From Clostridia bacterium (lineage in GTDB: Bacteria; Bacillota; Clostridia; Oscillospirales; Acutalibacteraceae): 64,000 nucleotides of DNA. Shown one piece after another: positions 5,377 through 63,229 of this stretch. The DNA lies in the NCBI GenBank assembly GCA_017410325.1, contig JAFQRA010000020.1, forward strand, positions 62,001-126,000, written 5' to 3'. The position numbers were made by a program, and so were the translations under genes. Below the pieces are notes generated by a model. The model saw nothing but the letters and a program-made list of their open reading frames with translations. It searched no databases and was not told the DNA's origin. Numbering within the stretch: the stretch's first letter is position 1; every line of letters starts with the position of its first letter.

Positions 5377-5380
5377 AACT

Positions 5381-9852: not shown

Positions 9853-9856
9853 CACA

Positions 9857-39164: not shown

Positions 39165-39180
39165 TTGCGGTTGGATCAAT

Positions 39181-39543: not shown

Positions 39544-39544
39544 T

Positions 39545-39958: not shown

Positions 39959-39985
39959 CAAACGTATAAAAGCGTGGAGAATTTT

Positions 39986-43561: not shown

Positions 43562-43566
43562 ATGTC

Positions 43567-46500
43567 ATGAGTAAGATTTATGATCTTAAAACTAAATATA
43601 AAAACTTTGATGCCAAGCAAATGGATAACGTTGCCAAAAGTGAATTGAGGAAGGATTTGCTTTCTTTCAAAACGGAGAAATTAGTGGGCGTTGACGAACA
43701 CTTAATTTTCATTGAACTTCTTAATCTTTTAAGAACTTCACTTATGGTAGATAATGAATTAATAGGAGATAATTATCCGAAGTTGTTAGAGTCGCTTCTT
43801 TCTGTTGGTGAAGATGGCGTCTATTCCACTCCATTACGTTTTTTGTTTGAATTAATTCAGAATGTTGATGATTGCGATTATACGGACCGTAGTTGTGTGG
43901 AATTGGATATACAAACAGATTATGATGCGGGCAAAATCATACTCACGTATAACGAAGTCGGTTTTACACCGTATAATGTGTTTGCTATTACCGGTATTGC
44001 TGAAGCAGCTAAGAATATTTCTTCTGATAAAGTAGAGATTGGTGAAAAAGGTATCGGATTTAAATCGGTCTTTGGCGTGGCGGATAAAGTTTTGATTCAA
44101 AGTGGAAAGTTTTCATTTGAATTACATAAAAATAATTTCACAGTTCCTATACCGGTATATGATTCTTTTGAAGAGGTACAGGGCACGAGATTAACTCTTT
44201 TTGCCGATCCTCAAAAGGTTAAAAGCATTTACGATGAATTTGCAAAAAAATATCACAACAAAGAATCACTTTTCAATCAAAATCCGTTACTTTTTTTAAA
44301 TAAATTGACAAAGCTTCATTTGTATTATGATTCTTTCAGAAGTTTAACTTTTAATGTGTCAAGAGCACCTCTTGCGGATGTTGAGGACCTTCAAATAGAA
44401 ACGGATGTTCATATTTCGGTTGATTTGCAAGATAATAACAGTAAGCACGATGATCATATCGTTCAAGAAATTTTATGTACGAGATATACGAAATCTATTA
44501 CATACGATCGCGAGACATGTATTTCACGTTATGGAGTTGAAACAGCATTTGAGGAAAAGAAAATGTTGATGCAAATAGTATTTCCTGCTGTTGATTATTT
44601 GTTTGGTGATGATTCTATAAAAAACGGCACACTGTATTCTTTTTTACCAACACAGATAAAGATACCGTTTCCGATGGCTTGCCATGTTCCGTTTAAACTT
44701 GGTGGTTCAAGAGAATATGTAGATCCCGAGGATCATAATGCATGGTTTAAGCATAGTTGCACATCATTTTATACCATGTTGCGAGAAGTATATATTGATT
44801 TTTCCCGAAGAGTTAAAGAAGACATAATTAATTATTTGCCAAACAGAAACAAGTATTTATTTGAAGCAGATTCAGATAATGCTAGTTGCTTACAAAAAAG
44901 AGAATTTAAGGGAGAGTCTTTTCTTGAATTCCCAATTTTTTACACGGCAGATAAACATTTCTTATCTGCGGAAAAAGTGTTTATGTTCCATGTCGCTGAA
45001 GATATTCCTGAACCTCAAAAAACATATTCATTACTTGGTGAGAAACGGGAGCTATTTGTGCCTAAAACATACTCAAGGGGTAAAAATCCGGGATTAGGTA
45101 CTGTTTCTAAAGTTAATGAAACATTGTTTTATAAGGCAATTAATGATTCTCAACATACTGATAGTATTTTTGATGTTTTGTCGAAAGTAGAATCTTTTTC
45201 ATTTGAAAAAATGATAGGCAATTTAGAAAAGAAAATATTTGACGTTGAGCAGATAAAAGTTTTTGCTAATCATGTTGCTTGTTGCTCTGCTTTTCAAAAA
45301 CAATTTGTAGAGCAAATTAAAAAGTCCCAGGAGCCAAGACATCACGCAAATATAAAATCTATAATTGTCGAAGATATTAGGTTTGTTGAAAGTAAAGAAT
45401 TGTGTCTTGATGATTCCGATTTCAATAAAAATGCAGCTTTATATTTCAAGAGGATAGGCTATAAGTGTTGCTATTTATCAGATGTTCCGGAACAATTTTA
45501 TTTTGCTTGTGATAACATACTGTTTTTGAGCAATAAATGTAGAATTACTGCACTGTCTGATTTCTGTGAACAAATAGATAAAAATTGTACGCTTTCGATG
45601 AATTTGCGGTTTAAAAATGCATCTAATCAATTGAATGAAGCTAGTGAAGAGCTGGATCCAACGGAATATATGAAGTTACTTCGAGCTACAAGAAAGACAA
45701 TTCAGAGTGCACTCGGTCAGGAAGCTTACAGACGATATATAAATCTTATCAATGATTCCGGAATGGATTCCGAAAGATACATTAATGAGATTTTGCAGAA
45801 TGCAGATGATTGTTTTTATGAAAAAGGGGTGAATCCCAACTTTAAATTAGTGATTTCAGATGATCGTACAAAAATTTTTACACAATACAATGAAGTAGGT
45901 TTTACAAAATCTAACGTAAGAGCAATAACGTCTATTGGTGAATCAACCAAAAAACAGATTATCGATTCTGATGGTAGAAGACCTGAAATAGGCGAAAAAG
46001 GAGTTGGCTTTAAATCAGTATTTGCGGTGTCAAATAATGTTTTTATTCATAGTGGGCCATTTCGTTTTAAGCTTACCGATAAAGCACCAACTATACCGGC
46101 TTTACCACCAGATGAAAAAGAGCCTTTCAAAGGAACTAAAATGATATTTGAACTAAAGCAACCCATTAAAAAAGATTTTTTCACGTTTGAAAAAGTTTTG
46201 AGGTTGTGCTTATGCTTAAGAAAACTAAGACGTTTAAAACTAGATGGTTTTGATATTCGGATAACGGATGACGGCGGAACTCGTCGAATTAAAGTTAATG
46301 ATAAGGTGTATGAATATCGGATAGTAACACACGAATTTGAAATTACCGATAATGATATAATCTCTGAACGGGAAAATCAGCAACGCAAAATCGATAAAAA
46401 GCAAAAGATTGTTTGCTATATTCCTAAAGTTAAGGATACGAATAATTGTTTTTTGTATTCAGGATTGCCGACGCAAGTGAAACTTAAAGTACCGTTAATA

Positions 46501-48824: not shown

Positions 48825-49013
48825 ATGGATTCTACTGTTGAACGTTGGTATTCAATGAAAGAAATTTGTAAACATCTCGGTGTAAGCCGTGACACTGTTC
48901 TTATCTGGATTGAAAAACGCAATATGCCCGCCGTCAAGATGGGCCGCCTTTGGAAGTTCAAAGTCAGCGAAGTCGATGAGTGGACAAAATCAGGAAAGGC
49001 TGCAGAAAAATGA
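48825..49013 (+). CDS. Excisionase-type helix-turn-helix protein
   Basis: 62 residues with a winged-HTH of the excisionase/MerR kind: W-Y-S-M-K-E-I-C-K-H-L-G-V-S-R-D-T-V, then I-E-K-R-N-M-P-A-V-K-M-G-R-L-W-K-F. It opens the Ssp operon region, 54 bases ahead of the sulfur-transfer gene, so it may regulate that operon; an excisionase role in element mobility is the alternative. The start has GCGAGGAAACAAA upstream. Confidence 0.85.
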   Translation: MDSTVERWYSMKEICKHLGVSRDTVLIWIEKRNMPAVKMGRLWKFKVSEVDEWTKSGKAAEK

Positions 49014-49067
49014 GACCGTTTTAACGGACTTAAGATGCGATATATTTAAATATAAGGAGGTATAATT

Positions 49068-50783
49068 ATGTGGTGCAAAAAATGCGAAAAAGAAACACCC
49101 GATAAAAAGTGCAATGAATGCGGCAGCTCCACATTAACAGAAGCTCCAATTGAAGTGTACTGGTGTAATAATTGTAACACACCAATCATAAAAAGAGCAT
49201 CCGATATTGGTAAAAATACATGTACTTTATGCGGTAACGCTACCCAATATATGTGCTCTGATTTGAGACCTGTATTTCCAGAAGAACGATTACTTATAGA
49301 ATTACTGCTCGACTGTCCTTTAGAGCACACTCAAAAATCTGTATGGGCATCAAACAATAAATACTATTTTGATGGCAAGGTAAAAAGCATCCCAACCAGT
49401 ATGTTTGCCTCTGCAGATGTTGAAAATCTTATTACAGGATTAAATGAGTTTAAATCGAACAATTCATACGAGTGGTTCGATAAACATATAGCTACATTTA
49501 TTTCTGCAAATAGAGATAGATTAGACTCAATAAAAAATGAGGCATACGATTTTATAAAAGATACTGCAAAGGACTACCCTGCAAACAATACTGTGATTTC
49601 CTTTTCTGGAGGTAAAGACTCCACTGTAGTAGCCGATTTAGTAGTAAGAGCGTTAGGTAACCCCAGCTTGGTTCATATTTTCGGTAACACAACCTTAGAG
49701 TTTCCGTTAACAATAGAGTATGCTCAACGCTTTAGAAAAAACAATCCGAAAGCAATTTTGAAAATTGCCAAAAATAAAGAACAGGATTTTTACAGCGTTT
49801 GTGAAGATATTGGCCCCCCTGCTCGAATGATGCGTTGGTGTTGTTCAATGTTTAAAACTGGACCGATAACAAGAACGATCAACAATCTTTATAAGGATAA
49901 ACAAATTCTTACATTTTATGGCATACGCAAATACGAATCGGCAAGCAGAAGCAAATACGATAGAGTTTCTTCAAATAACGAATCCGTTAAAATACAAAAA
50001 CAAACGGTAGCTGCTCCTATATTTGATTGGAAAGACATCGATGTTTGGCTTTATATATTAGCTGAAAATGTAGATTTTAACGTTGCATATCGACTTGGCT
50101 ATGACCGCGTTGGATGCTGGTGTTGTCCTAACAATAACGAAAGAGCACAATTTTTAGCCAAAATTTATATGCCTGATGAATATAAAAAATGGCATGACTT
50201 TTTAATTAGCTTTGCCAAAAAAATAGGAAAACCTGACCCTGAAGTTTATGTCGATACAGGAAAATGGAAAGCTCGTCAGGGTGGAAATGGCGTTGCTGCA
50301 GCTAATGATATAAAAATCAAGTTTACTAATTGTACAGTTGAAGATAACGCAAAAATATATCAGCTAAACAAACCAATTACTGATAGTTTTTATTCACTAT
50401 TTAATCCATTTGGCGTTGTGTCAAAAGAACTTGGCAGGAAATTGATCGGAGAGGTAATTATACTTGACCCTAAGCATAATGTACCTATCATCTCATTACA
50501 ACCATTTAAACAAGCAGATTATGAATACGCAATAAAAGTAAAAACTATGAATGTTGCAAATCATGAAGATTTGCAACGAATGGCTGGATATCAAATCAGA
50601 AAATATAACGCTTGTCGCAAGTGCTTAAAATGTGAATCTTTATGTCGTTCAGGTGCCATTATGATTTACGGTGATACATATCGCATTGATAGCGATAAGT
50701 GCACACGCTGTAAAAAGTGTGTAACGGCTAAATATCTTGATGGTGGATGTAAAATGGCTAGTTATCTTGCTACTAAAGAATAG
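49068..50783 (+). CDS. sspD: PAPS-reductase-like sulfurtransferase, SspD-like, with Fe-S domain
   Basis: 571 residues, ATG with ATAAGGAGGTATAATT upstream. The N-terminal about 65 residues hold four C-x-x-C pairs (zinc ribbons). The PP-loop ATP pyrophosphatase core has S-F-S-G-G-K-D-S-T (about 178-186), M-R-W-C-C-S and V-G-C-W-C-C-P. The C-terminal ferredoxin-like segment (about 515-560) has two clusters of C-x-x-C-x-x-x-C type. This is the DndC/SspD class that activates DNA phosphate and inserts sulfur. Next to DUF4007, an ATPase and a cysteine desulfurase it is best read as SspD. Confidence 0.85.
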   Translation: MWCKKCEKETPDKKCNECGSSTLTEAPIEVYWCNNCNTPIIKRASDIGKNTCTLCGNATQYMCSDLRPVFPEERLLIELLLDCPLEHTQKSVWASNNKYYFDGKVKSIPTSMFASADVENLITGLNEFKSNNSYEWFDKHIATFISANRDRLDSIKNEAYDFIKDTAKDYPANNTVISFSGGKDSTVVADLVVRALGNPSLVHIFGNTTLEFPLTIEYAQRFRKNNPKAILKIAKNKEQDFYSVCEDIGPPARMMRWCCSMFKTGPITRTINNLYKDKQILTFYGIRKYESASRSKYDRVSSNNESVKIQKQTVAAPIFDWKDIDVWLYILAENVDFNVAYRLGYDRVGCWCCPNNNERAQFLAKIYMPDEYKKWHDFLISFAKKIGKPDPEVYVDTGKWKARQGGNGVAAANDIKIKFTNCTVEDNAKIYQLNKPITDSFYSLFNPFGVVSKELGRKLIGEVIILDPKHNVPIISLQPFKQADYEYAIKVKTMNVANHEDLQRMAGYQIRKYNACRKCLKCESLCRSGAIMIYGDTYRIDSDKCTRCKKCVTAKYLDGGCKMASYLATKE

Positions 50784-50792
50784 GAGTAAAAT

Positions 50793-51674
50793 ATGAAGTT
50801 TAGAGCTCATGATACATTTTCAATACGTAAAGGTTGGTTGCACAAAGGAATGCGCCACATTATTAATAACTCTAGAGTGTTTGTTGATAAAAACGTTAAT
50901 TCTATGGACGAATTCGGACTTGGTGCTAATATGGTAAAAGCATTAAGGTATTGGCTTCAAGCAACAGGCCTTACTATTGAAGCAACAAATAATAACAATC
51001 GTAGTCAACAGCTTTCCCCGTTTGGTAGAATAGTATGGGAGAATGATAGTTATCTTGAAGAAGATGGTACCCTTTTCCTTATTCATTACTTTTTGTCAAC
51101 AAATAAGGATTTAGCTACAGCGTGGTATTATTTCTTCAACGAATACAATATGATTGAAATATCTCCTGAAAGTTTTATTAACGGCATTCGGACTTTTCTT
51201 TTAAAAAACAATGATTTTCATGTTTCTGAAAGAGCATTAAAAGATGATTTCGATTGTATTATAAAAACTTATTTAGACACAGAAAAGAATAATACGCCTG
51301 AAAACAATATGAGCTGTCCGTTATCAGAGTTAGGATTAATATCTTCGTCTGATATAAAAAATAAGATATATGCAAAAACTACTCCTAATTTATCATCAAT
51401 TAATCCATTAATAATCTTAGCAATAATAATTAATGAAAATGCGAAATCTAATGGAACCAATGAAATTAAAATTTCAAAGCTTGAATCAGACCCCTGCAAT
51501 ATAGGAAAAGTATTTAATCTTGATACTTTTGCAGTCGCATCATATTTGGATAAGTTGCAAAACTTTGGATATATAAAAATTAATCGAACTGCCGGTCTTG
51601 ATTTGATTTATAAAAATACACAATGGTCTTTCTTAGAATGTATTGAAGAATACTATAGAAGTATTAATGACTAA
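50793..51674 (+). CDS. sspB: DUF4007 protein, SspB-like
   Basis: 293 residues. The opening F-R-A-H-D-T-F-S-I-R-K-G-W-L-x-K-G, then L-G-A-N-M-V-K-A-L-R-Y-W and H-Y-F-L-S-T-N-K-D-L-A-T-A-W-Y-Y-F-F-N, is the DUF4007 signature. DUF4007 proteins travel with DndC/SspD-type enzymes; SspB has been reported as the nickase for single-strand phosphorothioation. The gap to SspD is nine bases; the end overlaps possible upstream starts of SspC. Confidence 0.85.
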   Translation: MKFRAHDTFSIRKGWLHKGMRHIINNSRVFVDKNVNSMDEFGLGANMVKALRYWLQATGLTIEATNNNNRSQQLSPFGRIVWENDSYLEEDGTLFLIHYFLSTNKDLATAWYYFFNEYNMIEISPESFINGIRTFLLKNNDFHVSERALKDDFDCIIKTYLDTEKNNTPENNMSCPLSELGLISSSDIKNKIYAKTTPNLSSINPLIILAIIINENAKSNGTNEIKISKLESDPCNIGKVFNLDTFAVASYLDKLQNFGYIKINRTAGLDLIYKNTQWSFLECIEEYYRSIND

Positions 51675-51696
51675 ACGAAAGGATGTCCTTAACACT

Positions 51697-54600
51697 ATGT
51701 CAAATAAAGCTGATAAGCTAAATAATTATATTAAAGTCCTTTCGGATTTTCAGTATTCGATTAATATTGAGTACGATATACACAGTGACACTAAAATCAA
51801 AAATTATATTCCTACTTCAAGTGCGATAGATATAATTGAAGAGGTTATGCTTAGCACTTCTCCTAAATCAAAGGAGAGATCACGAATTTTTGTTGGTGCA
51901 TACGGTAAAGGTAAATCACATCTTGCTTTAATGCTAATTGCATTACTTTGCAGGAAAGAAAAAGAGTTATACAATACTCTTTTAACTATGATTTGTGAAA
52001 CAAAACCTGAATTGTGTAAATTTATAATTGACTATCAAGAAAGTGACCAGAAATTATTACCTGTTGTAATCCAAGGAAGCAGCACAGGTATTCGACAGTC
52101 TTTTCTTTTGGCACTAAAAAAGTCATTGGAAGAAAATGGTTTGGATGCAATTATGCCAAACACATATTTTACTGCTGCAATATCCACAATAAACAATTGG
52201 AAGAACAACTATAAAGAAACATATTCTGCCTTTAAAAAAGCGATACATTGCTCTACGTCTGAGTTCATTTCCGAACTCGGTCAGTTTAATAATGTCTTTT
52301 ACGAGAAATTCGTAGAAATATATCCATCACTTACTTCGGGTAGCGAATTTAATCCTGTTAATGGTATGGACATAATTGAGTTATATAACGATGTAAACGA
52401 AAAAATAAGAGATTATGGTTTCTCGGGTATTTTTGTTGTTTATGATGAGTTCAGTAAATTTTTATCTGGAAATCTTAAAAAAACCTCTTCAGATGAAATA
52501 GAAGTACTACAATATTTTGCCGAGAACTGTAACCGTAGCGCAAACAAACAGATGCATATTATGCTTATTTCCCATCAGAGCATCTTAAATTATGTAGATA
52601 AACTTCCTAAGTCTAAGGTTGATTCTTGGAAAGCGGTTTCAAATCGATACAAAACCATTGAGCTCAATACATCTGCGTCACAAACTTATGAAATCATAGG
52701 ACGAGTTATTAAAAAGAATGAAAATGATGTTGATAATTGGTTTGAATTATACACAGAAACTTATAAAGAGAATTTTTCAGATTTATATAACAAATGGTGT
52801 GACAAAAGGATATTCAGTGAATTAACTGTTGATGAATTTAAAAATCTGATTTTTAATTGCTATCCTCTTGATCCTGTTTCTTCTTTTATACTGCCAAAAA
52901 TATCAGAAAAAATAGCTCAAAACGAACGAACAATTTTCACTTTTTTATCTTCTGAAGGGCAAAAACACACCTTATCTGAATTTTTAAAGAATTCAAGTGC
53001 AGAAGGATTCGCTTTGCTAACTCCCGATGTCATTTTTGATTATTTTGAACCTCTTTTCAAAGCTGAGTCGTACGATAGACCTATACACAAAGTTTGGAAA
53101 ACAACTTCAGTTGCACTAAACAAGTTAAGCAAAAAGAAGAGTCTTGAAGCCAAAATAATAAAATCAATAGCTTTAATAAATATCTTAGATAGAGCTGACA
53201 TTATTGCACCAGATATTGATACTATTATTTCAATATACAGTTCAGTTTATGATGTGCAAACAATAATACCTGCTCTTACGGATTTAACGAACAAGGGCAT
53301 TTTGAGAAAACTCGAAAATAAGAACCATCTCAGAATCTGCGAGCACACAGAACAAAATGTTGATGCATTAATTAATGATGAAATAGAAACCCAAAAACTT
53401 TCTACTAATGTTCAAACTATTTTAAATCAGTTCGTCGGAAGTAAAGTTTTATATCCTAACTCATACAACGATGATAATGAAATCGTAAGATATTTTAACT
53501 TCAAATTTATTACATCTGCAGAGTTGTTAGAAAACACCGAATGTGTAAATAAAATAGAGTATGGAACAGCCGGGGTTGTGTATGCAGTTATTTGTGACCC
53601 TGAACAATATGATGAAACAATAAAGCAGCTGAAGTTAATAAAAAACAACAGAATAGTTTTCATTGTGCTTAAAGAAAATGAAGACATTTCTCAACATGCC
53701 TATAAATTCGACGCTATATCAAGTTTAATATCTAAAGCTGATGATGAGGTTTTCGTTGAAGAATTATTATATTCTTTATCAGATACCGAAGCAACTTTAC
53801 AGAAATATATGGATTCTTTCTTATGTCCGGAATTAGGAGAATGCATGTACTATTGGGTTGGTGAACTTGTTACTATTCATAGAAAGTCATCATTATCTAA
53901 ACTGCTATCAAATATCTGTGAAGAGGTTTTCTACAATTCACCGATAATAAACAATGAGGTTATTAACAAGGATGTTATAACCGGACAAGCAACCAATAGC
54001 CGTGCAAGACTTGTAGATGGTATCCTTGCAAATGAACTTAAACCTAATTTAGGCCTTGTTGGTAGCGGACAAGATGTAAGTTTTATGAGAAGCACATTAA
54101 AAGTTACAGGCATATATGTAGAAGATGAGAACGGTGTTTCTTTTTCAACAACTCCTAATGATGAAAATCTTGAGAATGTTTTGAGGATAATTAAAGAATT
54201 CATCATTGATAGTTCTATAAATGGCAAACGTTGTTTCTGCGACCTATATGATGAGTTAACAAACCCAGATAATCATATAGGCATGAAAAAAGGCGTAATT
54301 CCTATTTATATCGCAGTGGTTTTACATTTTTATAAAAAATATGTTGTTATAACCAGAAGCAATCGTGAAATGGAGATTAATGCACGACTGCTTGAAGCCA
54401 TCAATAATGCTCCATCTGAATATGATCTGTATTTAGAAAAATGGAATCCAGATAAGGAACAGTATATACAAGCACTTGAAGAAACCTTTAGTAGTTTTAT
54501 TCGAGCAACAGAGAAAGAATATAACAACTTTGAATATATAGTACATGCTATTCAAAGATGGTATCTTCAGTTGCCTAAAATGGTAAAAGAATCACAGCGA

Positions 54601-55347
54601 ATTTATTTAGGAAATGGAAACACTGAGAGAATTGACGGTACCATTACTAAGTTTTTAAACTCACTGAGAAATCCGGAAATTAATGCTCGAGAATATTTGT
54701 TTAATAAAATTTTGTGGATTGTTGATGTTGAATACTTCAGTGCAGATGTTGCTTCAAGGATTCTTGAAATGAAAAATTACATTGATAGAATTAAGCATAA
54801 TCTCATACAAGTATTATCCGTAGAGCTTAAGGACCTTTTCTCTAAAGGGAAATCACACGAGCAAGCAACCCTTTCTTCTGTTGTTGTTGATTGGGTTTCA
54901 TCTTTAGATGAAAATGTTTTCTCTCATATGTTCAACAACAGCGATAATGCGATATTACAAATCTGTGCAGATGTTACCCCAGATTCCGAAAAGTTTGTTG
55001 AGGATTTAGCTCGTCCTGCAACAGGTCTTAGAATAGACGACTGGGGTGAAATATCTATTGATGGATTTATTCATTCAGTGTCAGAGTTTGTAACTACAGT
55101 TGAAAACTATAATCAACAAGTAAAACAAGCTGAGAGTCCAAATCTTGGCGGAAGTTATAAACTTTCATTCATCGACGATACTGGTGTTGAAACATTCAAA
55201 ACTTTTGATAAAACCAATTTACCGGATAATGCCCAACTTCTTTACAACGATTTAGAAGCTATGCTTACCGAAGAATATGGAGCAGCTTTAAGCGATAACG
55301 AAAAAAGACAAGTGCTTATCGATATTATTAGTAAGTTGCTCAGTTAG
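51697..55347 (+). CDS. sspC: Large P-loop ATPase, SspC-like
   Basis: 1216 residues from ATG 51697, the start with the best ribosome site (GAAAGGATG); ATG 51667 or TTG 51643 would extend it into the DUF4007 gene. Walker A is G-A-Y-G-K-G-K-S (about 67-74) and Walker B with Glu is F-V-V-Y-D-E-F-S-K-F (about 245-254). The remainder is long, helical and without nuclease motifs. A big ATPase between DUF4007 and cysteine desulfurase fits SspC, the ATPase of the modification complex. The C-terminal half resembles BREX/DUF499-type ATPases only in general design. Confidence 0.8.
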   Translation: MSNKADKLNNYIKVLSDFQYSINIEYDIHSDTKIKNYIPTSSAIDIIEEVMLSTSPKSKERSRIFVGAYGKGKSHLALMLIALLCRKEKELYNTLLTMICETKPELCKFIIDYQESDQKLLPVVIQGSSTGIRQSFLLALKKSLEENGLDAIMPNTYFTAAISTINNWKNNYKETYSAFKKAIHCSTSEFISELGQFNNVFYEKFVEIYPSLTSGSEFNPVNGMDIIELYNDVNEKIRDYGFSGIFVVYDEFSKFLSGNLKKTSSDEIEVLQYFAENCNRSANKQMHIMLISHQSILNYVDKLPKSKVDSWKAVSNRYKTIELNTSASQTYEIIGRVIKKNENDVDNWFELYTETYKENFSDLYNKWCDKRIFSELTVDEFKNLIFNCYPLDPVSSFILPKISEKIAQNERTIFTFLSSEGQKHTLSEFLKNSSAEGFALLTPDVIFDYFEPLFKAESYDRPIHKVWKTTSVALNKLSKKKSLEAKIIKSIALINILDRADIIAPDIDTIISIYSSVYDVQTIIPALTDLTNKGILRKLENKNHLRICEHTEQNVDALINDEIETQKLSTNVQTILNQFVGSKVLYPNSYNDDNEIVRYFNFKFITSAELLENTECVNKIEYGTAGVVYAVICDPEQYDETIKQLKLIKNNRIVFIVLKENEDISQHAYKFDAISSLISKADDEVFVEELLYSLSDTEATLQKYMDSFLCPELGECMYYWVGELVTIHRKSSLSKLLSNICEEVFYNSPIINNEVINKDVITGQATNSRARLVDGILANELKPNLGLVGSGQDVSFMRSTLKVTGIYVEDENGVSFSTTPNDENLENVLRIIKEFIIDSSINGKRCFCDLYDELTNPDNHIGMKKGVIPIYIAVVLHFYKKYVVITRSNREMEINARLLEAINNAPSEYDLYLEKWNPDKEQYIQALEETFSSFIRATEKEYNNFEYIVHAIQRWYLQLPKMVKESQRIYLGNGNTERIDGTITKFLNSLRNPEINAREYLFNKILWIVDVEYFSADVASRILEMKNYIDRIKHNLIQVLSVELKDLFSKGKSHEQATLSSVVVDWVSSLDENVFSHMFNNSDNAILQICADVTPDSEKFVEDLARPATGLRIDDWGEISIDGFIHSVSEFVTTVENYNQQVKQAESPNLGGSYKLSFIDDTGVETFKTFDKTNLPDNAQLLYNDLEAMLTEEYGAALSDNEKRQVLIDIISKLLS

Positions 55348-55355
55348 GAGTTTTT

Positions 55356-56501
55356 ATGCATTATTTTGATAACGCAGCCACAACTTTTCCGAAGCCGGAA
55401 ATTGTATATGAAACAATGGATAAGTTTTACAGGACATATGGCGTCAATGCTGGACGCGGTATGTTCCGTGAGGCTTCTATTGCCAACAATTTAATATCTG
55501 AAACAAGGCAATTAATGTTAGAGTTATTGCACGCCACTTCAGATTATGATTGTATTTTTACATCTTCTGCAACAGAAGCATTAAATGTAATCTTGCAAGG
55601 TATGTCATGGTCTGAAGGTATGGTTGTATACATCACGCCGTTTGAACATAATGCAATATTACGCACATTAAAGTATTTGGAAAATGAATACGGAATCGTT
55701 ATCAAAGAGCTAATGCCTAAAGACTTCATTTATGATATAAGTGAAATAAAACAATCCTTTTTACAATACGTTCCTAATGTTGTCGTAATGTCACATGCAT
55801 CAAACGCTTTTGGTTTTATCAATCCGATAAAAGATATTTTTAGCCTTGCTAAAGAGTTTGGGGCAATTACAGTATGTGATATGGCTCAAACGGCTGGTCT
55901 TATTGATACAAACATTGTCGAAAACAAAATAGATTATGCTGTTTTTGCCGGACATAAAACACTTTATGGTCCATTCGGCATTGCTGGCTTTGTCACAAAC
56001 AATAAGTGCAAGTTGAAACCTCTTATATACGGTGGAACCGGAGTGGATTCCAAAAATCTGTATATGCCTGAAGAAATGCCGACAAAATATGAGGCTGGTA
56101 GCCATAATATTTGTGCTATAGCTGGACTGAACGCTGCATTGAAATGGATAAACGAAACGGGAATAAACAATATTTTTGACAAAGAAAAAGTTAATACATT
56201 TCGATTGCTGAAAATTATTGAAAAACATAAAAATATTTCTGTTGTACGATGTGCGGATGAAAGTAAAAATATTGGTGTAGTTTCCTGTGTCTTTGAAGGC
56301 TATAGTAGTGATAATATTGGACAAGTTCTGTCTGAACAGAATATTGCTACACGAACTGGTTTGCATTGTTCACCAAGATCTCATACCTTTATGAACACTG
56401 CCCCAAACGGAACCGTCAGGTTTGCAATATCATATTTCACAAGCAACGAGGATTTTGCAGCATTAGAACAATCTCTTGATTATATTGAAATGGAGGGGTA
56501 A
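55356..56501 (+). CDS. sspA: Cysteine desulfurase, SspA/DndA-like
   Basis: 381 residues, class V aminotransferase fold. H-A-S-N-A-F-G and C-D-M-A-Q-T-A-G bind PLP; the Schiff-base Lys is in A-G-H-K-T (Lys201); the persulfide Cys is in G-L-H-C-S-P (Cys338). It takes sulfur from cysteine and passes it to the SspD-like enzyme. Here it lies third from the end of the modification set, eight bases after SspC, instead of at the front. It is a dedicated copy, not likely housekeeping NifS/IscS. Confidence 0.9.
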   Translation: MHYFDNAATTFPKPEIVYETMDKFYRTYGVNAGRGMFREASIANNLISETRQLMLELLHATSDYDCIFTSSATEALNVILQGMSWSEGMVVYITPFEHNAILRTLKYLENEYGIVIKELMPKDFIYDISEIKQSFLQYVPNVVVMSHASNAFGFINPIKDIFSLAKEFGAITVCDMAQTAGLIDTNIVENKIDYAVFAGHKTLYGPFGIAGFVTNNKCKLKPLIYGGTGVDSKNLYMPEEMPTKYEAGSHNICAIAGLNAALKWINETGINNIFDKEKVNTFRLLKIIEKHKNISVVRCADESKNIGVVSCVFEGYSSDNIGQVLSEQNIATRTGLHCSPRSHTFMNTAPNGTVRFAISYFTSNEDFAALEQSLDYIEMEG

Positions 56502-56503
56502 AA

Positions 56504-58183
56504 GTGAACTATTCTAAATTTAAGGAAATACTAAACAAATTCTCTAAAAAAGAAATATCAGATTATCTTGGTGATAAAATATACGATGCTATTATTGAGT
56601 GGTCCGATTCTGAAGATGCTTACACCAAAAGTTCTTTGATTGATTTATTGGTCAACATTAATGGATATGGATTATTCCGAGATAAGTCGTTCAGGATGCG
56701 CTTTTTTAAATCCGTCCCAATAGACTTTTTGAAAAAAGCGTTAAATTCGAACCTTGACAACCACGAAAAACTTGCATCAAAAGCATCAAAAATCAGTTTT
56801 GAAGATAATCAGTTTTATAGGTTAATGTTTAGCGAGTTCTTTAAATGCCCCGAATATACCTTTACAGACTATATTCAAGAAAATATGTTAGAAGAAATAA
56901 CTCATTCTCCAACTAAGTTTTACGAGTTGTTGGATTATCAATATTTAATTAAACAACAAGCAATATATGAATTGACAAAGGAAACACCTTTAGGTCGAAA
57001 AATTTTAATTCATATGCCTACTGGAACAGGTAAAACCAAAACCGCTATGCATATATTGACACATTATTTTAATTTTGTCGATGAGAAAGCTTTTGTTGTT
57101 TGGGTAGCGCACACAAAAGAGTTGCTTGGACAAGCTTTTGAAACTTTTTCTAGTGTTTGGTCTCATTTGGGCTTGCGCAATATTTCTGTAGAAAAAAGTT
57201 GGGGGCAAGGGGAGCACTCAATTGATTCCGGTATGATTTTCACTACCATCCAATCATTGCAAACAATGAAAAAGAGTAATCCTGAATTATATAAAACTTT
57301 GTCACAAAAAATTACTCTTATGGTTTATGATGAATGTCATAAAATCGGAGCTAAAGAAACAAGTAAAGTTGTTGCTGATTTTTCAAAAACAACTAATGAT
57401 TCAAAAAAACATTTTATAGGTTTAACTGCCACTCCAGGCAGAACAACTGTAGATTCACTTGAAAATAGGATTTTCAACGAATTTTTTGATCGAAAAATTG
57501 AAATTGATATACATTTAGTTGATAGAATTAGCATGGGCAAAAATCAAGCAATAAATAATAAACAACTTTTAGATATTATCCCATATTTTCAATCACGAAA
57601 AATCCTATCAAAATTAATAAAAGAAGAGTTAAAATATGAAGTGCCTGATGATTTAATCGAAGAAATACGAAAAGAAGCTCGCAACAAAAATGAAATGTTT
57701 TCTGACTCTTTGATTGAAAAAATAGCTAGAAACAAAGCCAGAAACACAGTAATTCTTGAAAAGTTGAAACAGCTTAATGCAGAAAACAAACCAACCATTG
57801 TATTCGCTTGTTCGGTTGACCATGCTAAAATGCTTTCCGCTTTTTTGAATATTGAAAATATCTCAAACTCGCTAGTTTATGGCGATATGTTGCCGTCAAT
57901 CAGAGAAAAGGCTATTTCAGATTTTAAGGATAAGAAAAATAATGTAAATATCATAATCAACTACGATATTTTAACTACAGGATTTGATTCGACAAATATA
58001 GAGTGTGTTTTTATTACTCGTCCAACAAAATCCGTTATCTTATATAGTCAAATGATCGGACGTGGCCTGCGCGGTCCACAAATGGGTGGCGGCGAATCGT
58101 GTTTGTTGATTGATGTTATTGATAATTTAGTAGCTTTTGATGAAAATGAGGCGTTTATTCATTTTGATAGTTATTGGAGGTAA
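56504..58183 (+). CDS. DEAD/DEAH-box helicase of the Ssp operon
   Basis: 559 residues from GTG 56504, five bases after GGAGGGG. SF2 motifs: T-G-T-G-K-T-K-T (about 173-180), V-Y-D-E-C-H-K (about 274-280), L-T-A-T-P-G, and Q-M-I-G-R-G-L-R-G. About 140 helical residues precede the helicase. Position just after the four modification genes suggests the motor of the restriction arm, possibly the counterpart of one SspFGH component; which letter it corresponds to I cannot tell from sequence alone. Confidence 0.85.
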   Translation: MNYSKFKEILNKFSKKEISDYLGDKIYDAIIEWSDSEDAYTKSSLIDLLVNINGYGLFRDKSFRMRFFKSVPIDFLKKALNSNLDNHEKLASKASKISFEDNQFYRLMFSEFFKCPEYTFTDYIQENMLEEITHSPTKFYELLDYQYLIKQQAIYELTKETPLGRKILIHMPTGTGKTKTAMHILTHYFNFVDEKAFVVWVAHTKELLGQAFETFSSVWSHLGLRNISVEKSWGQGEHSIDSGMIFTTIQSLQTMKKSNPELYKTLSQKITLMVYDECHKIGAKETSKVVADFSKTTNDSKKHFIGLTATPGRTTVDSLENRIFNEFFDRKIEIDIHLVDRISMGKNQAINNKQLLDIIPYFQSRKILSKLIKEELKYEVPDDLIEEIRKEARNKNEMFSDSLIEKIARNKARNTVILEKLKQLNAENKPTIVFACSVDHAKMLSAFLNIENISNSLVYGDMLPSIREKAISDFKDKKNNVNIIINYDILTTGFDSTNIECVFITRPTKSVILYSQMIGRGLRGPQMGGGESCLLIDVIDNLVAFDENEAFIHFDSYWR

Positions 58184-58187
58184 AAAA

Positions 58188-59993
58188 ATGGCTATTAAGG
58201 AAAAGGAAATTATGAATTCTGGTGAAGAACTGTATCAAATTGAAACTATGGCAGATGGTGCAAGAAATACCGGCTACAAATCAACCTATAATGCTATAGC
58301 CGAAATTGTTGATAATAGCATTGAGTCAAATGCAAAAAATGTTTTTATCATCGGTAAGCAGGATCTTGTTTTGAACCAACAATGCATAAGAGAATTTGCA
58401 TTTCTTGATGACGGAAATGGTATGTCAGAAGACATAATATCAAAATGTTTAAAATTAGGATACTCTACTCGCAGAGAGCGAAAGGGAATGGGTAGATTTG
58501 GTGTTGGTTTGCCTCAAGCTTCATACAGTGTTTCTCCAAGAGTTGAAGTTTATTCGTGGATAAACGGAATTGAAAATTGTAATTGTGTTTTTGTCGATTG
58601 GGACTTAGTTTCAAGTGGTAATCAAACGAGAATTGAAGGTCCTTTTAAAACTAATATTCCAGATGAATACAAAAAGTTTATTAAATTTCAGACTGTAGAA
58701 AAGCAATATGATTTCAGTAAACATGGCACTCTTGTGCTTTGGCCTAAATGTGATAGAGTTGACCATAAAAGATGGAATACTTGCAAACGAAATATCGCTG
58801 AGGATTTAGGAAGAAAGTATCGCTGGATGCTTAACGAAGGCACAGTGAACATTAGCACCGTTGAAATAAACGATTTAGAAACATTTGAAACAATTCTTCC
58901 TAATGATCCTTTGTTTCTCATGCAAAAAAGTCAATTTTGTGTAAGAGAAAACTGTTCAGAAACAGATTCTTCTTGTCAAAAATATGACGAGGCACGCGGA
59001 TATGTTGAAGCTTTATTTGAACCATATGTAACGGAGGATAATACAACAGGTATAATCGAGCCAGAAGTGTATTATTATGATAAAAACGGTAATAAATGCT
59101 GGTCAAAAGTTACGATTCGTTTTTCAATTGTAAAAGATCGTTTTTACGATAAAGCATACATAGCTAAAGATCCCGGAACTTTAGCATACGGAAAATGTGC
59201 AAAACGAAATATGGGCATATCTATAGTGAGACAAGGTCGAGAGATTGATTTTGGAGACTTTGGTTATTATGATGATGCTGTTAAACCTAATCATAGATGG
59301 TGGGGTTGTGAAATTTCTTTTTCATCAGAATTGGATGAAGCTTTTGGTATTTCGAATAACAAACAGCAAGTCACCTTAAAACGGATAGATGAAGATGATC
59401 TGGCAGATTTTGATGGAAATGAACCGATGTGGATTCAATTAAGACCTTATGTTGAAACAGCCATCAGGGATATGTATAAAATCAACAGCGATAGACGAAG
59501 TGGCACTAGAAAAAATTCAAATGGAGTCACAGCAACAACAGCAACTTCCGAAACAGTAAAAACTGCAGAAAAAGAAAATCCTGATATTTCGGTGCCTAAT
59601 AAAACTATCAGCGATGTAACTGAAGAAGTTAAAGAAAAGGTAGAACAGGAGTTGCGTGAAGAAGGATTTGAAGATGTAACAGAGGAGCAGATTCTTCAAT
59701 ATCTTGATTCTAATACTCGTGTTAAATATGTTAACTATGGCTCTCGCAATGCTTTTTTAGATTTTAAAGATGAACTTGGTATATTAAAAATTATAGTAAA
59801 TAAAGATCATCAGTTTTATTTGGATTTTGTTCAAGAATCCTATCAAGACGAAAATATGCAGGTTACTTTTGAATTGTTTTTAGTATCATTAATAAAAACA
59901 GTGTACAAGCTACAAAACATTTACCCTACAGCTATGGATAGATTAGTGGATGAAATTAACGACAGATTAAAAGTATTTTTAAAAGCAAAATAA
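58188..59993 (+). CDS. GHKL (HSP90/MutL-like) ATPase of the Ssp operon
   Basis: 601 residues from ATG 58188 (GGAGG just before it; an earlier in-frame ATG lies inside the helicase gene). The Bergerat ATP fold shows A-E-I-V-D-N-S-I-E-S (about 36-46), D-D-G-N-G-M-S (about 74-80) and G-M-G-R-F-G-V-G-L-P-Q (about 99-109), the MORC/MutL/sacsin arrangement. The C-terminal third is acidic with a Thr/Ser-rich linker at about 440-470. It could act as an ATP-gated clamp in the restriction step. Confidence 0.85.
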   Translation: MAIKEKEIMNSGEELYQIETMADGARNTGYKSTYNAIAEIVDNSIESNAKNVFIIGKQDLVLNQQCIREFAFLDDGNGMSEDIISKCLKLGYSTRRERKGMGRFGVGLPQASYSVSPRVEVYSWINGIENCNCVFVDWDLVSSGNQTRIEGPFKTNIPDEYKKFIKFQTVEKQYDFSKHGTLVLWPKCDRVDHKRWNTCKRNIAEDLGRKYRWMLNEGTVNISTVEINDLETFETILPNDPLFLMQKSQFCVRENCSETDSSCQKYDEARGYVEALFEPYVTEDNTTGIIEPEVYYYDKNGNKCWSKVTIRFSIVKDRFYDKAYIAKDPGTLAYGKCAKRNMGISIVRQGREIDFGDFGYYDDAVKPNHRWWGCEISFSSELDEAFGISNNKQQVTLKRIDEDDLADFDGNEPMWIQLRPYVETAIRDMYKINSDRRSGTRKNSNGVTATTATSETVKTAEKENPDISVPNKTISDVTEEVKEKVEQELREEGFEDVTEEQILQYLDSNTRVKYVNYGSRNAFLDFKDELGILKIIVNKDHQFYLDFVQESYQDENMQVTFELFLVSLIKTVYKLQNIYPTAMDRLVDEINDRLKVFLKAK

Positions 59994-60017
59994 TATATTA
60001 CAGAAAGGTATAATCCT

Positions 60018-60929
60018 ATGAGTCTGTTAACAACATCTGAAGCAAAAAATAAAATAGCAGAACAAGTAAGATTGGCTACAGAACAACTTCATATAATTTC
60101 AGCATTTTGCAAAAAATCAGCATTAGAATTCATTGAAAGTAATATTCAAAACAATCTCAGTGAAAAAAAGATTCTCGTAAGATTCCTTCTCTCAGATATT
60201 GTTAACGGTGTTACAGATTTTGAGTTATATGAATACTGTAAAGCAAATGGCTGGAAACTGTATATAAGGTTTGACCTGCATGCAAAAACATATGTATTCG
60301 ATAGAAAAAGGCTTGTACTCGGTAGTGCAAATTTAACAAACAATGGACTTGGTCTCAATTATGGAGGCAATTATGAACTTTCATATTTTGCCGATATTGA
60401 ATCAGGCGATTTAAAAAAGATTGATTCTCTTTTTGATAATGCTGTTTTGATGACTGACGAGCTTTATGAAAATATGAAGCTGGATTATCAATCCTTCAAA
60501 GACTATAGAAGCAACTCTAAACCCATGAAATGGAATCTTTCTATAGAGAAACAATTCAATCCGGTTATTGACGCGTTGTTTACATATGATTTTCCAAGTA
60601 TCTCTGAGCCGAATTTTGACGATGTTTCATGCTTTGAATTTTTGGAATTGAACCGTATTCCAACAAAAGATGAACTTAAAGAGGCTTTTCGATGGAGCAA
60701 GGTTTTTCTTTGGCTTTATAATTATGTTAGTAACGCCTCTGATAAAACGCGCTATTTTGGTGCTATAACAGCAGAATTGCATAATACATTAATAAATGAT
60801 CCCAGACCCTATCGAAAAGAAGTTAAAGACCTCTTAGCAAATTTATTAAAATGGATACAAATTTTAGATATGAAAGAGATATGTATTGATACGCCTAATC
60901 ATTCTCAACGTATTTCTATAAATATTTAA
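60018..60929 (+). CDS. PLD-family nuclease of the Ssp operon
   Basis: 303 residues, ATG after CAGAAAGGTATAATCCT. One HKD-type half-site is clear: L-H-A-K-T-Y-V-F-D (His88, Lys90) followed by L-G-S-A-N-L-T (about 101-107). A single site means it must dimerise to form a full active centre. About 160 further helical residues follow. It is the most obvious DNA-cleaving candidate for the operon. Confidence 0.85.
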   Translation: MSLLTTSEAKNKIAEQVRLATEQLHIISAFCKKSALEFIESNIQNNLSEKKILVRFLLSDIVNGVTDFELYEYCKANGWKLYIRFDLHAKTYVFDRKRLVLGSANLTNNGLGLNYGGNYELSYFADIESGDLKKIDSLFDNAVLMTDELYENMKLDYQSFKDYRSNSKPMKWNLSIEKQFNPVIDALFTYDFPSISEPNFDDVSCFEFLELNRIPTKDELKEAFRWSKVFLWLYNYVSNASDKTRYFGAITAELHNTLINDPRPYRKEVKDLLANLLKWIQILDMKEICIDTPNHSQRISINI

Positions 60930-60945
60930 GATTCGGTGATATGTG

Positions 60946-61455
60946 ATGCTTCAAGAAGTAGATATTTTTGAAAGGCCTTTACTATTTAAATTAAATTTCG
61001 AGTTAGATATTGAAAAGTGGGCTAGTATAGACGATGAAATAAGAACACTTGTCTCATCAGGTTGGAATAGCATAAAATATTTAAACGACGATGGTACGGC
61101 AATAAATGATGAGATCCGTAGTGTTCCTGATGATTGCGGCGGTATTTACTTGTTTCTATTAAAACCTGACAAAATCCCGCAAATGCACAGGTATATTATG
61201 TATATTGGTCGAGCACATAGAGCAACTAACTTTAGCCTCCGAAAAAGATGCGTTAAATATATTTCTGATACTCGTCCAAAAGTCGCTCGCATGATACATC
61301 GTTGGGGAAAAGAATTATATTTATTTTACTTGCCAATCAATGACACTGACGATTATATTGATAAAGTAGAGAGTGAATTGCTTCGAGTTATAATTCCACC
61401 ATGCAATACACGGATCCCTGATTACTATGTTATGCCCGATGAAGATATGTTTTAA
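60946..61455 (+). CDS. GIY-YIG nuclease-like protein
   Basis: 169 residues from ATG 60946 (one codon after GTG 60943; weak GGTGAT site). The domain shows G-G-I-Y-L-F (about 64-69), Y-I-M-Y-I-G-R-A-H-R (about 81-90), a conserved R-K-R-C, V-E-S-E-L-L-R with the metal-binding Glu, and a closing P-P-C-N-T-R Asn. All hallmark residues of GIY-YIG nucleases are present. It is a second potential nuclease beside the PLD protein. Confidence 0.75.
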   Translation: MLQEVDIFERPLLFKLNFELDIEKWASIDDEIRTLVSSGWNSIKYLNDDGTAINDEIRSVPDDCGGIYLFLLKPDKIPQMHRYIMYIGRAHRATNFSLRKRCVKYISDTRPKVARMIHRWGKELYLFYLPINDTDDYIDKVESELLRVIIPPCNTRIPDYYVMPDEDMF

Positions 61456-61466
61456 GGAGAATTATT

Positions 61467-62738
61467 ATGGCTATAAAAATACCTGCTATCCGTTCAAAAA
61501 TAGGAATATGGTATTACTATGTTAGTTCACTAAGCTTTGAACAAGTAAACAAATATGTACGTCCAATTGACGATGAACTTCATCATTCAGATTTGTTAAG
61601 TGGGATGATTCAACGTAGCATCACATCTAATTATAAAAGCATTGCTAATTATATTGAAACTCAGGAGGAAAGGTTTTTTAATTCACTAATTCTTGCTGTG
61701 TATGATGGACAACCAAAATGGAATGAAATCAGAACACAAGATGAAACCGGCGAAGATAATTACAATTTGGGAATAATTACTCTAACCGATGATGTAAAGA
61801 TCTTTCCAGTAGATGGACAGCATCGTGTCGCAGGAATTAAGAAAGCAATTAAAGATAATCCCGATATGAAGTTAGAACGAGTTCCGGTAATTTTCATTGG
61901 TCATTCTACCGATGAGATTGGAATGCAACGCACTAGAAGAATGTTTAGTACGCTGAATAGGTATGCTAAACCTGTTTCTTTGAGAGATATCATTGCACTC
62001 GATGAGGACGATGTGGTTGCTATTGCATCCAGAAACTTAATAGATAACACAAATATATTTGTTACAGACAGAATTTTAGATTCAAAAAACAAATCAATCC
62101 CAGATTCAAATAATATGGCTTTGACCTCAATTATAACATACTATGAATGTAATAAAGAGTTGCTTTGGTTACACATAAAAGATACTGAAGTTGTTGGACT
62201 TGAAGAAAAGCCGATTAGAGGCAGAGCCAAAATTAAAGAGTATATCAGACACCGCCCAAAGGATGAAATTATTTCTATTTTCACACAAGAATGCAAAGAG
62301 TTTTGGGATGCAATAGTAAACAAATGTCCTGAAGTTAGAGAACCCAATATTACAGTTGGTGCATATAGAGACAATAATGGCGGTCATCTTTTCTTTAGGC
62401 CTATTGCGCTTTACCCATTTACCAAAGCATCCGTAAGAATAAAAGAGCACTACAATAAATCTTATACTCAAATAATTGAATCAATTCCACCGGAATTGCT
62501 CTGGATACAAAACCGGCTGTGGCGAAAAATAATATGGGATGATGTTGCAAAAAAAATGGTTATGGGCAATGCTACTCAAATTGAACTCATGTTACTTTAT
62601 ATAATGGCACCGGAACTTTTAAATTTTAAAGAGAAGAAAAAAATGATCGATAACTTAAAAAGTATATGGGATGAAACTGATGAGAACATCATAATAGACC
62701 GACTGGATTCTATCATACGTGGAGACGAATTCGTTTAA
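61467..62738 (+). CDS. DGQHR-domain protein, DndB-like
   Basis: 423 residues, ATG with TTTTAAGGAGAATT upstream. The signature D-G-Q-H-R lies at about residues 116-120 (F-P-V-D-G-Q-H-R-V-A-G), with R-R-M-F-S-T-L-N-R-Y-A-K-P downstream, as in DndB and other DGQHR proteins. DndB controls transcription of the dnd genes and modification level. A DndB-like protein closing an Ssp operon is unusual and could play the same regulatory part. Confidence 0.9.
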   Translation: MAIKIPAIRSKIGIWYYYVSSLSFEQVNKYVRPIDDELHHSDLLSGMIQRSITSNYKSIANYIETQEERFFNSLILAVYDGQPKWNEIRTQDETGEDNYNLGIITLTDDVKIFPVDGQHRVAGIKKAIKDNPDMKLERVPVIFIGHSTDEIGMQRTRRMFSTLNRYAKPVSLRDIIALDEDDVVAIASRNLIDNTNIFVTDRILDSKNKSIPDSNNMALTSIITYYECNKELLWLHIKDTEVVGLEEKPIRGRAKIKEYIRHRPKDEIISIFTQECKEFWDAIVNKCPEVREPNITVGAYRDNNGGHLFFRPIALYPFTKASVRIKEHYNKSYTQIIESIPPELLWIQNRLWRKIIWDDVAKKMVMGNATQIELMLLYIMAPELLNFKEKKKMIDNLKSIWDETDENIIIDRLDSIIRGDEFV

Positions 62739-62815
62739 TACATTATTTTAAGCAAAGCTACCCTTAATGGTGCCTTTACTTGTGTATACATAAGGTCTTA
62801 AAGAGAAAGAACAAT

Positions 62816-63229
62816 ATGATTAAAGAACTTATGCACGACCCGATTTTGCTCAGCATTAAATCGGAGGTTGCGCCAAAAGAAGATTTGCAGGTTGCAGAGG
62901 ATTTGCTCGACACTCTCACCGCCCATAAAGACGGCTGTGTAGGTATGGCGGCGAATATGATTGGTGTGCATAAACGCATCATCGCTTTTGATAATGACGG
63001 CACGTATATGGTTATGTTCAACCCCGAGATAATAAAAAAATCGGGACCTTATGATGCAGAAGAAGGTTGTCTTTCTCTGCTCGGCGGTCCCCGAAAGTGT
63101 AAGCGTTATAAAACCATAAAAGTGAAGTGGCAAACGGCTGAATTCCAGACCCGTATCAAAACTTTCACAGGTTTCCCTGCACAGATAATCCAGCATGAAG
63201 TAGATCATTGCGACGGAGCGTTAATATGA
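62816..63229 (+). CDS. def: Peptide deformylase-like protein, copy 2
   Basis: 137 residues from ATG 62816, chosen by alignment with copy 1; the frame is open 36 bases further upstream. The Cys and His metal ligands (E-E-G-C-L-S and Q-H-E-V-D-H) are kept, and motif 1 again lacks Gln. Ten residues differ from copy 1, among them Val to Gly after the L-L-G turn. The stop overlaps the next gene in ATGA, unlike copy 1. Confidence 0.8.
   Translation: MIKELMHDPILLSIKSEVAPKEDLQVAEDLLDTLTAHKDGCVGMAANMIGVHKRIIAFDNDGTYMVMFNPEIIKKSGPYDAEEGCLSLLGGPRKCKRYKTIKVKWQTAEFQTRIKTFTGFPAQIIQHEVDHCDGALI
62816..63229 (+). repeat. Direct repeat (deformylase gene), right copy
   Basis: Same orientation as 39545-39958. 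Most differences are scattered and silent, so the copies diverged some time ago or were acquired separately. Recombination between them would delete or amplify modules 2 and 3 as a unit of about 23 kb. Confidence 0.9.

Follow-up and report, generated by a model that had tools for sequence, protein, structure and literature searches.

Which restriction machinery works beside the Ssp-type DNA phosphorothioation genes when none of their described partners is at hand? In one study, 2,211 of 2,678 sspBCD sets lacked SspFGH and SspE, and further restriction partners are given there as one possible reason (PMC8092258). We analyzed an operon that bears on this question in a Clostridia bacterium of the Acutalibacteraceae (assembly GCA_017410325.1, contig JAFQRA010000020.1), within a stretch of 64,000 nucleotides (positions 62,001 to 126,000 of the contig), hereafter the window, whose own numbering is used below. 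The operon is probably a phosphorothioate (PT) restriction-modification system of the Ssp type and is made up of two units, the modification genes SspD-B-C-A and a helicase-GHKL-PLD arm. Its restriction block would combine a helicase, a MORC-type ATPase, and a PLD nuclease, apparently an undescribed partner for PT marking, and GIY-YIG/DGQHR is an optional pair. The nine genes and the gene preceding them are as follows.

49068..50783, + strand: sspD-like gene, BrxP type, 571 residues (PF01507, PADLOC BrxP/SspD/DndC, motifs)
50793..51674, + strand: sspB-like gene, DUF4007, 293 residues (PF13182, PADLOC SspB, solved SspB 6juf)
51697..55347, + strand (reading frame opens at TTG 51643): sspC-like ATPase, about 1216 residues (PADLOC SspC, Walker A)
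55356..56501, + strand: sspA-like cysteine desulfurase, 381 residues (PF00266, TIGR01977, PADLOC SspA, motifs)
56504..58183, + strand: SF2 helicase, 559 residues, GTG start (ResIII/Helicase_C, motifs)
58188..59993, + strand (reading frame opens at TTG 58137): MORC-like GHKL ATPase, about 601 residues (HATPase_c_3, MORC profile matches, model)
60018..60929, + strand: HKD/PLD-fold nuclease, 303 residues (PLDc_2, DrmC-like, motifs)
60943..61455, + strand: GIY-YIG-like nuclease, accessory, 170 residues, GTG start (conserved residues, homologues' weak profile matches)
61467..62738, + strand: DGQHR/DndB-like protein, accessory, 423 residues (PF14072, TIGR03187)
48825..49013, + strand: HTH_17/excisionase-like gene, 62 residues, not among the nine (PF12728, 1.1e-12)

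The nine open reading frames (ORFs) follow one another in the same direction at 49068-62738. Reading the sequence, we consider ATG 51697 the likelier start of SspC than TTG 51643, and ATG 58188, behind an AGG-like ribosome site, the likelier start of GHKL than TTG 58137. With these starts, the eight intergenic gaps measure 9, 22, 8, 2, 4, 24, 13, and 11 bases, in agreement with the nine genes and gaps of 2 to 24 bases of a preliminary description of this DNA; the region start given there, 48825, takes in the HTH_17 gene as well. Profile scans with Pfam, PADLOC, and NCBIfam support the names of all but the GIY-YIG-like protein, and every motif sought was present except for one Walker B pattern tried on SspC.

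The modification genes

Genes 1 to 4 had been proposed as the Ssp set, and by their profile matches they are an Ssp-type phosphorothioation set with an SspD of the long BrxP type. Gene 1 belongs with the PAPS reductases (PF01507, 1.1e-32), and its best PADLOC match is BrxP (1.3e-82), followed by SspD (2e-14) and DndC (3.3e-13), which is the outcome of the profile search proposed for the nine proteins as far as the first gene is concerned. The protein has a PP-loop (SGGKDS), a cysteine-rich N terminus, and a cysteine-rich, ferredoxin-like C terminus (CRKCLKCESLC) with Fer4 matches below the cut-off; a ferredoxin-like extra region is described for type-4 bacteriophage exclusion (BREX) and a subset of SspD in a 2026 BREX survey (PMC12839542). 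Gene 2, the only DUF4007 gene of its genome, is assigned with certainty to DUF4007/SspB by its sequence matches (PF13182, 1.5e-80; PADLOC SspB, 4e-59; solved SspB 6juf, 2.4e-21). The large ATPase matches PADLOC SspC at 7.4e-120 versus BrxC at 7.9e-40 and has a Walker A motif (GAYGKGKS). SspA matches PF00266 (3.9e-75), TIGR01977 above its cut-off, and PADLOC SspA (1.6e-41), with the motifs GHKT and TGLHCSP. SspB/DUF4007, SspC, and SspD are thus all present, with SspA in a place that a host desulfurase may also take.

The helicase-GHKL-PLD arm

Gene 5 contains all four SF2 helicase motifs sought (PTGTGKT, DECH, TATP, and QMIGRGLR), and its nearest models are PbeA in PADLOC and RadD (127 bits, cut-off 720). 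Gene 6 matches HATPase_c_3 in Pfam (4.9e-19), and a profile of 20 GHKL sequences, across which the residues of the ATP-binding motifs are conserved, reached the structures of MORC2, MORC3, and MORC4 (to 7.2e-08). An AlphaFold2 model of this protein (mean predicted local distance difference test [pLDDT] score 80.2, predicted template modeling score 0.66) matched GyrB, MORC2-4, Hsp90, and MutL at E of about 1e-10, with template modeling (TM) scores of only 0.27-0.57 over partial lengths. The GHKL motifs and MORC-like fold that mark the MORC/paraMORC families are therefore both found, the fold being common to GyrB, Hsp90, and MutL. ParaMORC families are described as sitting with SF2 helicases and nucleases in restriction-modification neighborhoods (2008; PMC2292703). 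Gene 7 encodes a protein with a single HKD motif (HAKTYVFD, GSAN) that matches PLDc_2 (3.3e-08) and is DrmC-like. PADLOC and NCBIfam label the arm proteins by distant models only; the earlier names SF2 helicase, GHKL, and PLD, like DGQHR for gene 9, are backed by profiles.

Distribution of the arrangement

Genome contigs were scanned with an alignment of two GHKL proteins, which gave 44 loci (L006-L049, where L and G numbers are our handles for loci and genomes; L018 is, judged by length and position, the contig of L005 and was read as L005). In the stretches examined, SspB and SspC stand beside GHKL in 31 of the 44. The order D-B-C-A-helicase-GHKL-PLD occurs in 26, comprising 21 of the 43 loci read (two of them, L014 and L026, with one extra ORF inside), L018, and four loci with a gene in pieces (L021, L022, L030, and L031; L022 also has an extra ORF), and the gaps in this shared order are mostly below 100 bases. 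Record titles include Clostridia, Treponema, Coriobacteriaceae, Paludibacteraceae, and Anaeroplasmataceae; since the same order is found in many species, the arrangement is more than chance. The survey for conserved order suggested earlier has a positive answer, and the internal desulfurase, remarked on earlier, is no oddity, being fourth in the usual order of these loci. In a 27th core locus, L016, the order is broken, C and the helicase are reduced to short pieces, and A was not detected; at its positions 3644-9974, a 506-residue ORF lies between two D pieces, and the locus is apparently inactive. Other layouts are B-C-short D-PLD-helicase-GHKL in Pelagibacter (L033), a Sutterella locus (L038) in which C, B, and PLD are on the opposite strand and D is next to them, and helicase-GHKL-GmrSD_N-B-C-short D without PLD (L032 and L035).

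GHKL matches were also present in 42 of 72,556 plasmid records, of which we examined 15, mostly the best-ranked, taking gene content from profile maps. Helicase, GHKL, and PLD follow in this order on 10 of the 15, with one gene between GHKL and PLD in Planktothrix and a toxin-antitoxin pair there in Cyanobacterium HL-69. On two more (Aminobacter and Agrobacterium), helicase-GHKL is followed by a 359-residue protein, which in Aminobacter matches the PADLOC "Effector endonuclease" model (7.3e-10); the Agrobacterium protein was scanned by Pfam only. Three plasmids have neither layout (L131, L132, and L134), L134 carrying GHKL, helicase, and PLD in another order. SspC and/or SspD are found in the stretch on 10 of the 15 plasmids; Cyanobacterium HL-69 has a desulfurase only, and Agrobacterium has SspF, SspG, and a gene annotated FtsK/SpoIIIE. 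The block is intact where the modification genes are rearranged, be they convergent (Roseobacter and Mesorhizobium), ordered B-C-D (Pannonibacter, Pleomorphomonas, and Hymenobacter), or on cyanobacterial plasmids. Roseobacter litoralis pROLI83 holds all nine families in two convergent operons, A-B-C-D-GIY-DGQHR and helicase-GHKL-PLD. Hosts of plasmids with the block beside Ssp genes are alphaproteobacteria, cyanobacteria, a spirochaete, and a Bacteroidota. Genes 5 to 7 are one conserved block; the five later genes, first described as a single arm, divide into this block and an optional, movable pair (genes 8 and 9).

Some plasmid loci hold further genes. In the Planktothrix plasmid, an ORC-CDC6-like ATPase lies between SspD and the helicase (L128, 5719-7332). 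Cyanobacterial DndB-like proteins of about 770 residues precede helicase-GHKL-PLD in L129 (4815-7121) and L053 (6034-8370), and their long C-terminal half has no family match above cut-off.

We also sampled the phylum. Of 398 genomes drawn from it, 31 have DUF4007; apart from the window, we read 30 DUF4007 regions, some of which are truncated at the end of a contig. In one of these, L099, all nine families are present in the order D-B-C-GIY-DGQHR-A-helicase-GHKL-PLD. A GHKL profile search of 398 genomes drawn the same way (a sample agreeing with the first in the handles listed) matched five genomes at E<=1e-20. Three matches are strong (E at most 3.1e-94), in the window's own genome, G868, and G756, all with DUF4007; the weak ones are in G840, with DUF4007, and G762, which is not among the DUF4007 genomes. 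Leaving out the own genome, whose inclusion was not blind, two of two strong matches fall in DUF4007 genomes, a small but suggestive number. PglZ lies near DUF4007 in 1 of 30 genomes (G705), and GmrSD_N lies within the regions of several; BrxP-type Ssp sets therefore have more than one kind of partner. A second recurrent neighbor of BrxP-type D-B-C(-A) is a protein of about 720 residues, which in L097 (11690-13858) is a helicase with a PLD-like match below cut-off. Helicase matches of similar score occur in L093, L096, L098, L102, L106, and L111 (the Pfam scan was made on L097 only), and in L097 and L106 a GmrSD_N (DGQQR) protein lies further on.

Two exchangeable units

Do the modification genes and the arm share a history? 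We compared pairwise protein identities across 24 loci (the window, L005, 21 ordered loci, and L099), that is, 276 pairs that are not independent and carry no P value; in L026, D is truncated where the locus ends. Spearman correlations were 0.82-0.84 among D, B, C, and A and 0.89 for helicase with GHKL, versus 0.08-0.21 between the two groups; PLD correlated with either at 0.31-0.44. In L005 and L006, D, B, C, and A are 98, 92, 97, and 92% identical, whereas helicase, GHKL, and PLD are 44, 42, and 71% identical, and DNA identity, taken in windows of 300 bases, is 84-97% across the four genes and drops to 41-53% right behind A. The window's helicase and GHKL are 69% and 76% identical to those of L006 versus 45% and 40% to those of L005, and its GIY-like and DGQHR proteins are 90 and 89% identical to those of L005. 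With metagenome contigs, an assembly join is possible for one locus; the identity correlation does not depend on that locus. By these comparisons, the modification unit and the helicase-GHKL(-PLD) arm are two evolutionary units that recombine.

Helicase-GHKL pairs averaging 63-65% alike occur with SspB proteins only 32-36% identical (L005 versus L009-L013, L017, and L025). Because similar pairs accompany very different SspB proteins, helicase-GHKL would read PT or the Ssp proteins rather than the target sequence; a common feature, be it PT itself or the state of SspC or the Ssp proteins, is the more likely object of recognition.

Several observations weigh against a joint system. Free exchange between the units is equally expected of two separate defense systems sharing a site, and the arm is present in only 3 of the 31 DUF4007 genomes (the window, L099, and L101). 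No SspB is seen in 13 of the 44 GHKL loci (L036, L037, and L039-L049; several stretches are short), of which L043 and L045 have SspC- and desulfurase-like matches and L036 has D and A pieces. On plasmids, L131, L132, and L134 carry GHKL relatives without Ssp genes in the stretch read. With these 13 loci and three plasmids, the GHKL family cannot be regarded as exclusive to Ssp. Helicase-GHKL-PLD could accordingly be a self-contained defense system of DISARM, MZA, or MORC type that shares its locus with an orphan Ssp set. The independent divergence of the two units and the L134 plasmid, with GHKL, helicase, and PLD and no Ssp gene in the stretch read, agree with this, as do the neighborhoods of paraMORC and SF2 helicase with methylases or restriction nucleases known since 2008 (PMC2292703). 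We nevertheless judge a self-contained arm unlikely, given that one seven-gene order with short gaps recurs in 26 of 44 loci, that the Ssp association returns in distant phyla and other layouts, and that all three strong GHKL matches of the phylum sample (one being the own genome) are in DUF4007 genomes. The genomics shows that the units co-occur, not what they do.

The GIY-YIG-like and DGQHR pair

What, then, are genes 8 and 9? The DGQHR protein matches PF14072 (DndB; 91.3 bits, cut-off 29.1) and TIGR03187 (102 bits, cut-off 58.85) and fails the DndB equivalog TIGR03233 (76 bits, cut-off 328). Gene 8 probably encodes a GIY-YIG nuclease. Support for this naming comes from relatives and conserved residues; the 170-residue window protein has no family match of its own, even at E 10. 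Across six homologues, G67, Y69, Y87, G89, R102, and E143 are invariant (GIY at 67-69 and YIG at 87-89), and we take these to be meaningful positions of GIY-YIG nucleases. Of five proteins scanned, three reach GIY_YIG_2 (PF20815; 2.4e-4, 0.01, and 0.049), and one of the three also reaches the UvrC N terminus (0.0019). None of these matches attains its cut-off, and the other two proteins, from the window and Roseobacter, had no profile match. A structure model from a three-sequence alignment (pLDDT 38.5), with no match at E <= 0.001 in a fold search, is not counted as evidence, and a search of solved structures returned nothing for the GIY profile or the DGQHR protein. GIY-YIG-type nucleases are noted in passages of a 2024 study near Dnd ABC-ATPase cores, not with Ssp (PMC10853773).

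The pair is an optional accessory. Among the 27 core loci, just two have it (L017 and L018; a few stretches stop shortly behind PLD); in L099 it lies between SspC and SspA, and on the Roseobacter plasmid it follows SspD. On Rhizobium pTiK1_93, it stands beside SspF-G-H, SspD, and part of SspC, with no arm in the stretch read. Because the pair also adjoins SspFGH there, it is not part of the arm, and because it is placed among modification genes or beside SspFGH elsewhere, it does not define a subtype. The distinct subtype proposed earlier stands; what defines it is helicase-GHKL-PLD, not a GIY-YIG gene and a Dnd-style regulator. Sought alone in 391 genomes of the class, GIY was found in the own genome only; viral contigs held no relative of GIY or GHKL, and phages gave two records with short matches. 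In Hymenobacter and Trichormus, the arm comes after GIY-like proteins of another sequence type, recognized by weak matches (E 0.029 and 0.12, respectively).

GmrSD_N (DGQQR) genes lie directly beside the seven-gene core in six loci (L006, L010, L012, L013, L026, and L027), downstream of PLD or, in L026, between A and the helicase, and in none of the loci read that carry the pair. We had first taken these GmrSD_N proteins for SspE and dropped the assignment, as those of L013, L026, and L035, the three scanned, have no SspE match in PADLOC. The distribution raises the question of whether the main restriction effector is a split SspE made of GIY-YIG and DGQHR, with helicase-GHKL-PLD in a secondary role. 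SspE couples a DGQQR GTPase to an HNH nickase (PMC9646914), and in the 2024 study sspE is equated with DndB (PMC10853773). We find such a role improbable, considering the rarity of the pair among core loci and its company with SspF, SspG, and SspH on the Rhizobium plasmid; six GmrSD_N loci versus five with the pair (the window, L005, L017, L099, and L051) are too few for a meaningful exclusion. Comparison of the DGQHR and GmrSD_N profiles was negative (probability 3%, E 0.015, over the DGQxR motif), which also counts against any SspE-like role of the pair in our own account.

Relation to known systems

Judged by gene content, the restriction module of the window operon differs from all three PT restriction branches laid out in a 2025 review (PMC12707154), namely, dndFGH with sspFGH, sspE, and pbeABCD. 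The operon is like SspABCD-SspE in its SspA, B, C, and D genes and in having a DGQxR protein; it differs in the absence of SspE, in its helicase-GHKL-PLD restriction block, and in the long BrxP type of its SspD. SspBCD-SspFGH likewise combines SspB, C, and D with a three-gene restriction block, but its SspF carries a Walker A motif and its SspH is FtsK-like (PMC8092258). Among the PADLOC matches listed for the ten proteins (for the helicase, the best 25 of 29), none was to SspE, SspF, SspG, or SspH, and no genome-wide search for SspF-H was made; this accords with the earlier difficulty of matching genes 5 to 9 one-to-one to F, G, and H. GmrSD_N had no match in the own genome (96% complete).

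DndCDEA-PbeABCD, of the CxC-ABC systems, shares an SF2 helicase and an HKD nuclease with PT modification. There, PLD and helicase are fused in PbeA, and PbeC is SMC-like (PMC6459918), whereas in the window operon helicase and PLD are separate, a GHKL ATPase is present, and DndD, a CxC ABC ATPase, and DndE had no match among the operon proteins (no genome-wide search was made). In the paraMORC/MORC-SF2 neighborhoods of 2008, a GHKL-S5 ATPase likewise has an SF2 helicase and a nuclease as neighbors; they differ in featuring methylases and restriction nucleases, and the article's text, figures aside, yielded none of the terms PAPS, phosphoadenos-, or phosphorothio-. A decayed or variant type-4 BREX (BrxP-BrxC-PglZ-BrxL) would account for the BrxP-like PAPS reductase (PADLOC 1.3e-82), DUF4007, the large ATPase, and the cysteine desulfurase, which is reported in 56% of type-4 taxa, yet it is very improbable: PglZ is reported in all such taxa and BrxL in 96% (PMC12839542), neither is among the operon proteins (BrxL was not sought genome-wide), the one PglZ-family match of the own genome (24.9 bits, or 26 with frame neighbors; cut-off 25) is on another contig, the BrxP-like protein and DUF4007 are separate genes, and the large ATPase scores far higher as SspC than as BrxC. 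In the open PMC literature, which leaves out preprints and most subscription papers, we found no paper on SspABCD with GHKL.

Proposed mechanism

In the two-unit system that we favor, and going by homology, SspA would take sulfur from cysteine, the BrxP-type SspD would receive and activate it, and SspB with the SspC ATPase would find the site, where sulfur would enter one DNA strand. The MORC-like ATPase may clamp DNA while the SF2 helicase translocates along it or opens it, and the HKD nuclease would cut unless the complex meets the PT mark or Ssp proteins. The GIY-YIG/DGQHR accessory could regulate marking while bringing a nuclease of its own, or it could be the equivalent of SspE in two genes, with a nuclease next to a DGQxR protein. 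A bolder extension, which we offer as possible and tentative, is that a helicase, a MORC-like ATPase, and an exchangeable nuclease (HKD or the 359-residue protein) constitute a further, multiphylum class of PT-gated restriction machines, swappable and reading the mark independently of sequence, with GIY-YIG and DGQHR as the two-gene SspE counterpart.

Genomic surroundings

The operon stretch is AT-rich (guanine-plus-cytosine content 0.32-0.35) and sits behind other defense genes. The island at 35620-48279 encodes a PLD-helicase-DUF3427 protein resembling type IV restriction enzymes, a Swt1-HEPN + SNF2 helicase (DrmD-like), and a 1573-residue sacsin/HATPase protein (PADLOC TmtA). Two peptide-deformylase genes are present, one in this island (39545-39958) and one directly after the operon (62780-63229), and an AAA_14-DUF4143 protein at 31125-32558 matches the PADLOC candidate PDC-S01 (9.2e-156). 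The 62-residue HTH_17/excisionase-like gene probably lies outside the system. Among the 24 loci given, a relative upstream of D is found in the window only (at least two loci, L014 and L026, hold no upstream DNA and could not show one), and its membership in the system is unsupported. Promoter and terminator scans gave counts no different from those of shuffled sequences.

Implications

Found beside Ssp genes in Bacillota, Spirochaetota, Alphaproteobacteria, Cyanobacteriota, and Bacteroidota, helicase-GHKL-PLD is a candidate for filling part of the gap in sspBCD partners. Named strains with such loci, including Schaedlerella arabinosiphila, Treponema saccharophilum, and Lachnospira multipara, make the arm testable. 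If our reading is true, a MORC-type ATPase gated by a mark on the DNA backbone would link the PT systems of bacteria to the MORC family of eukaryotic chromatin.

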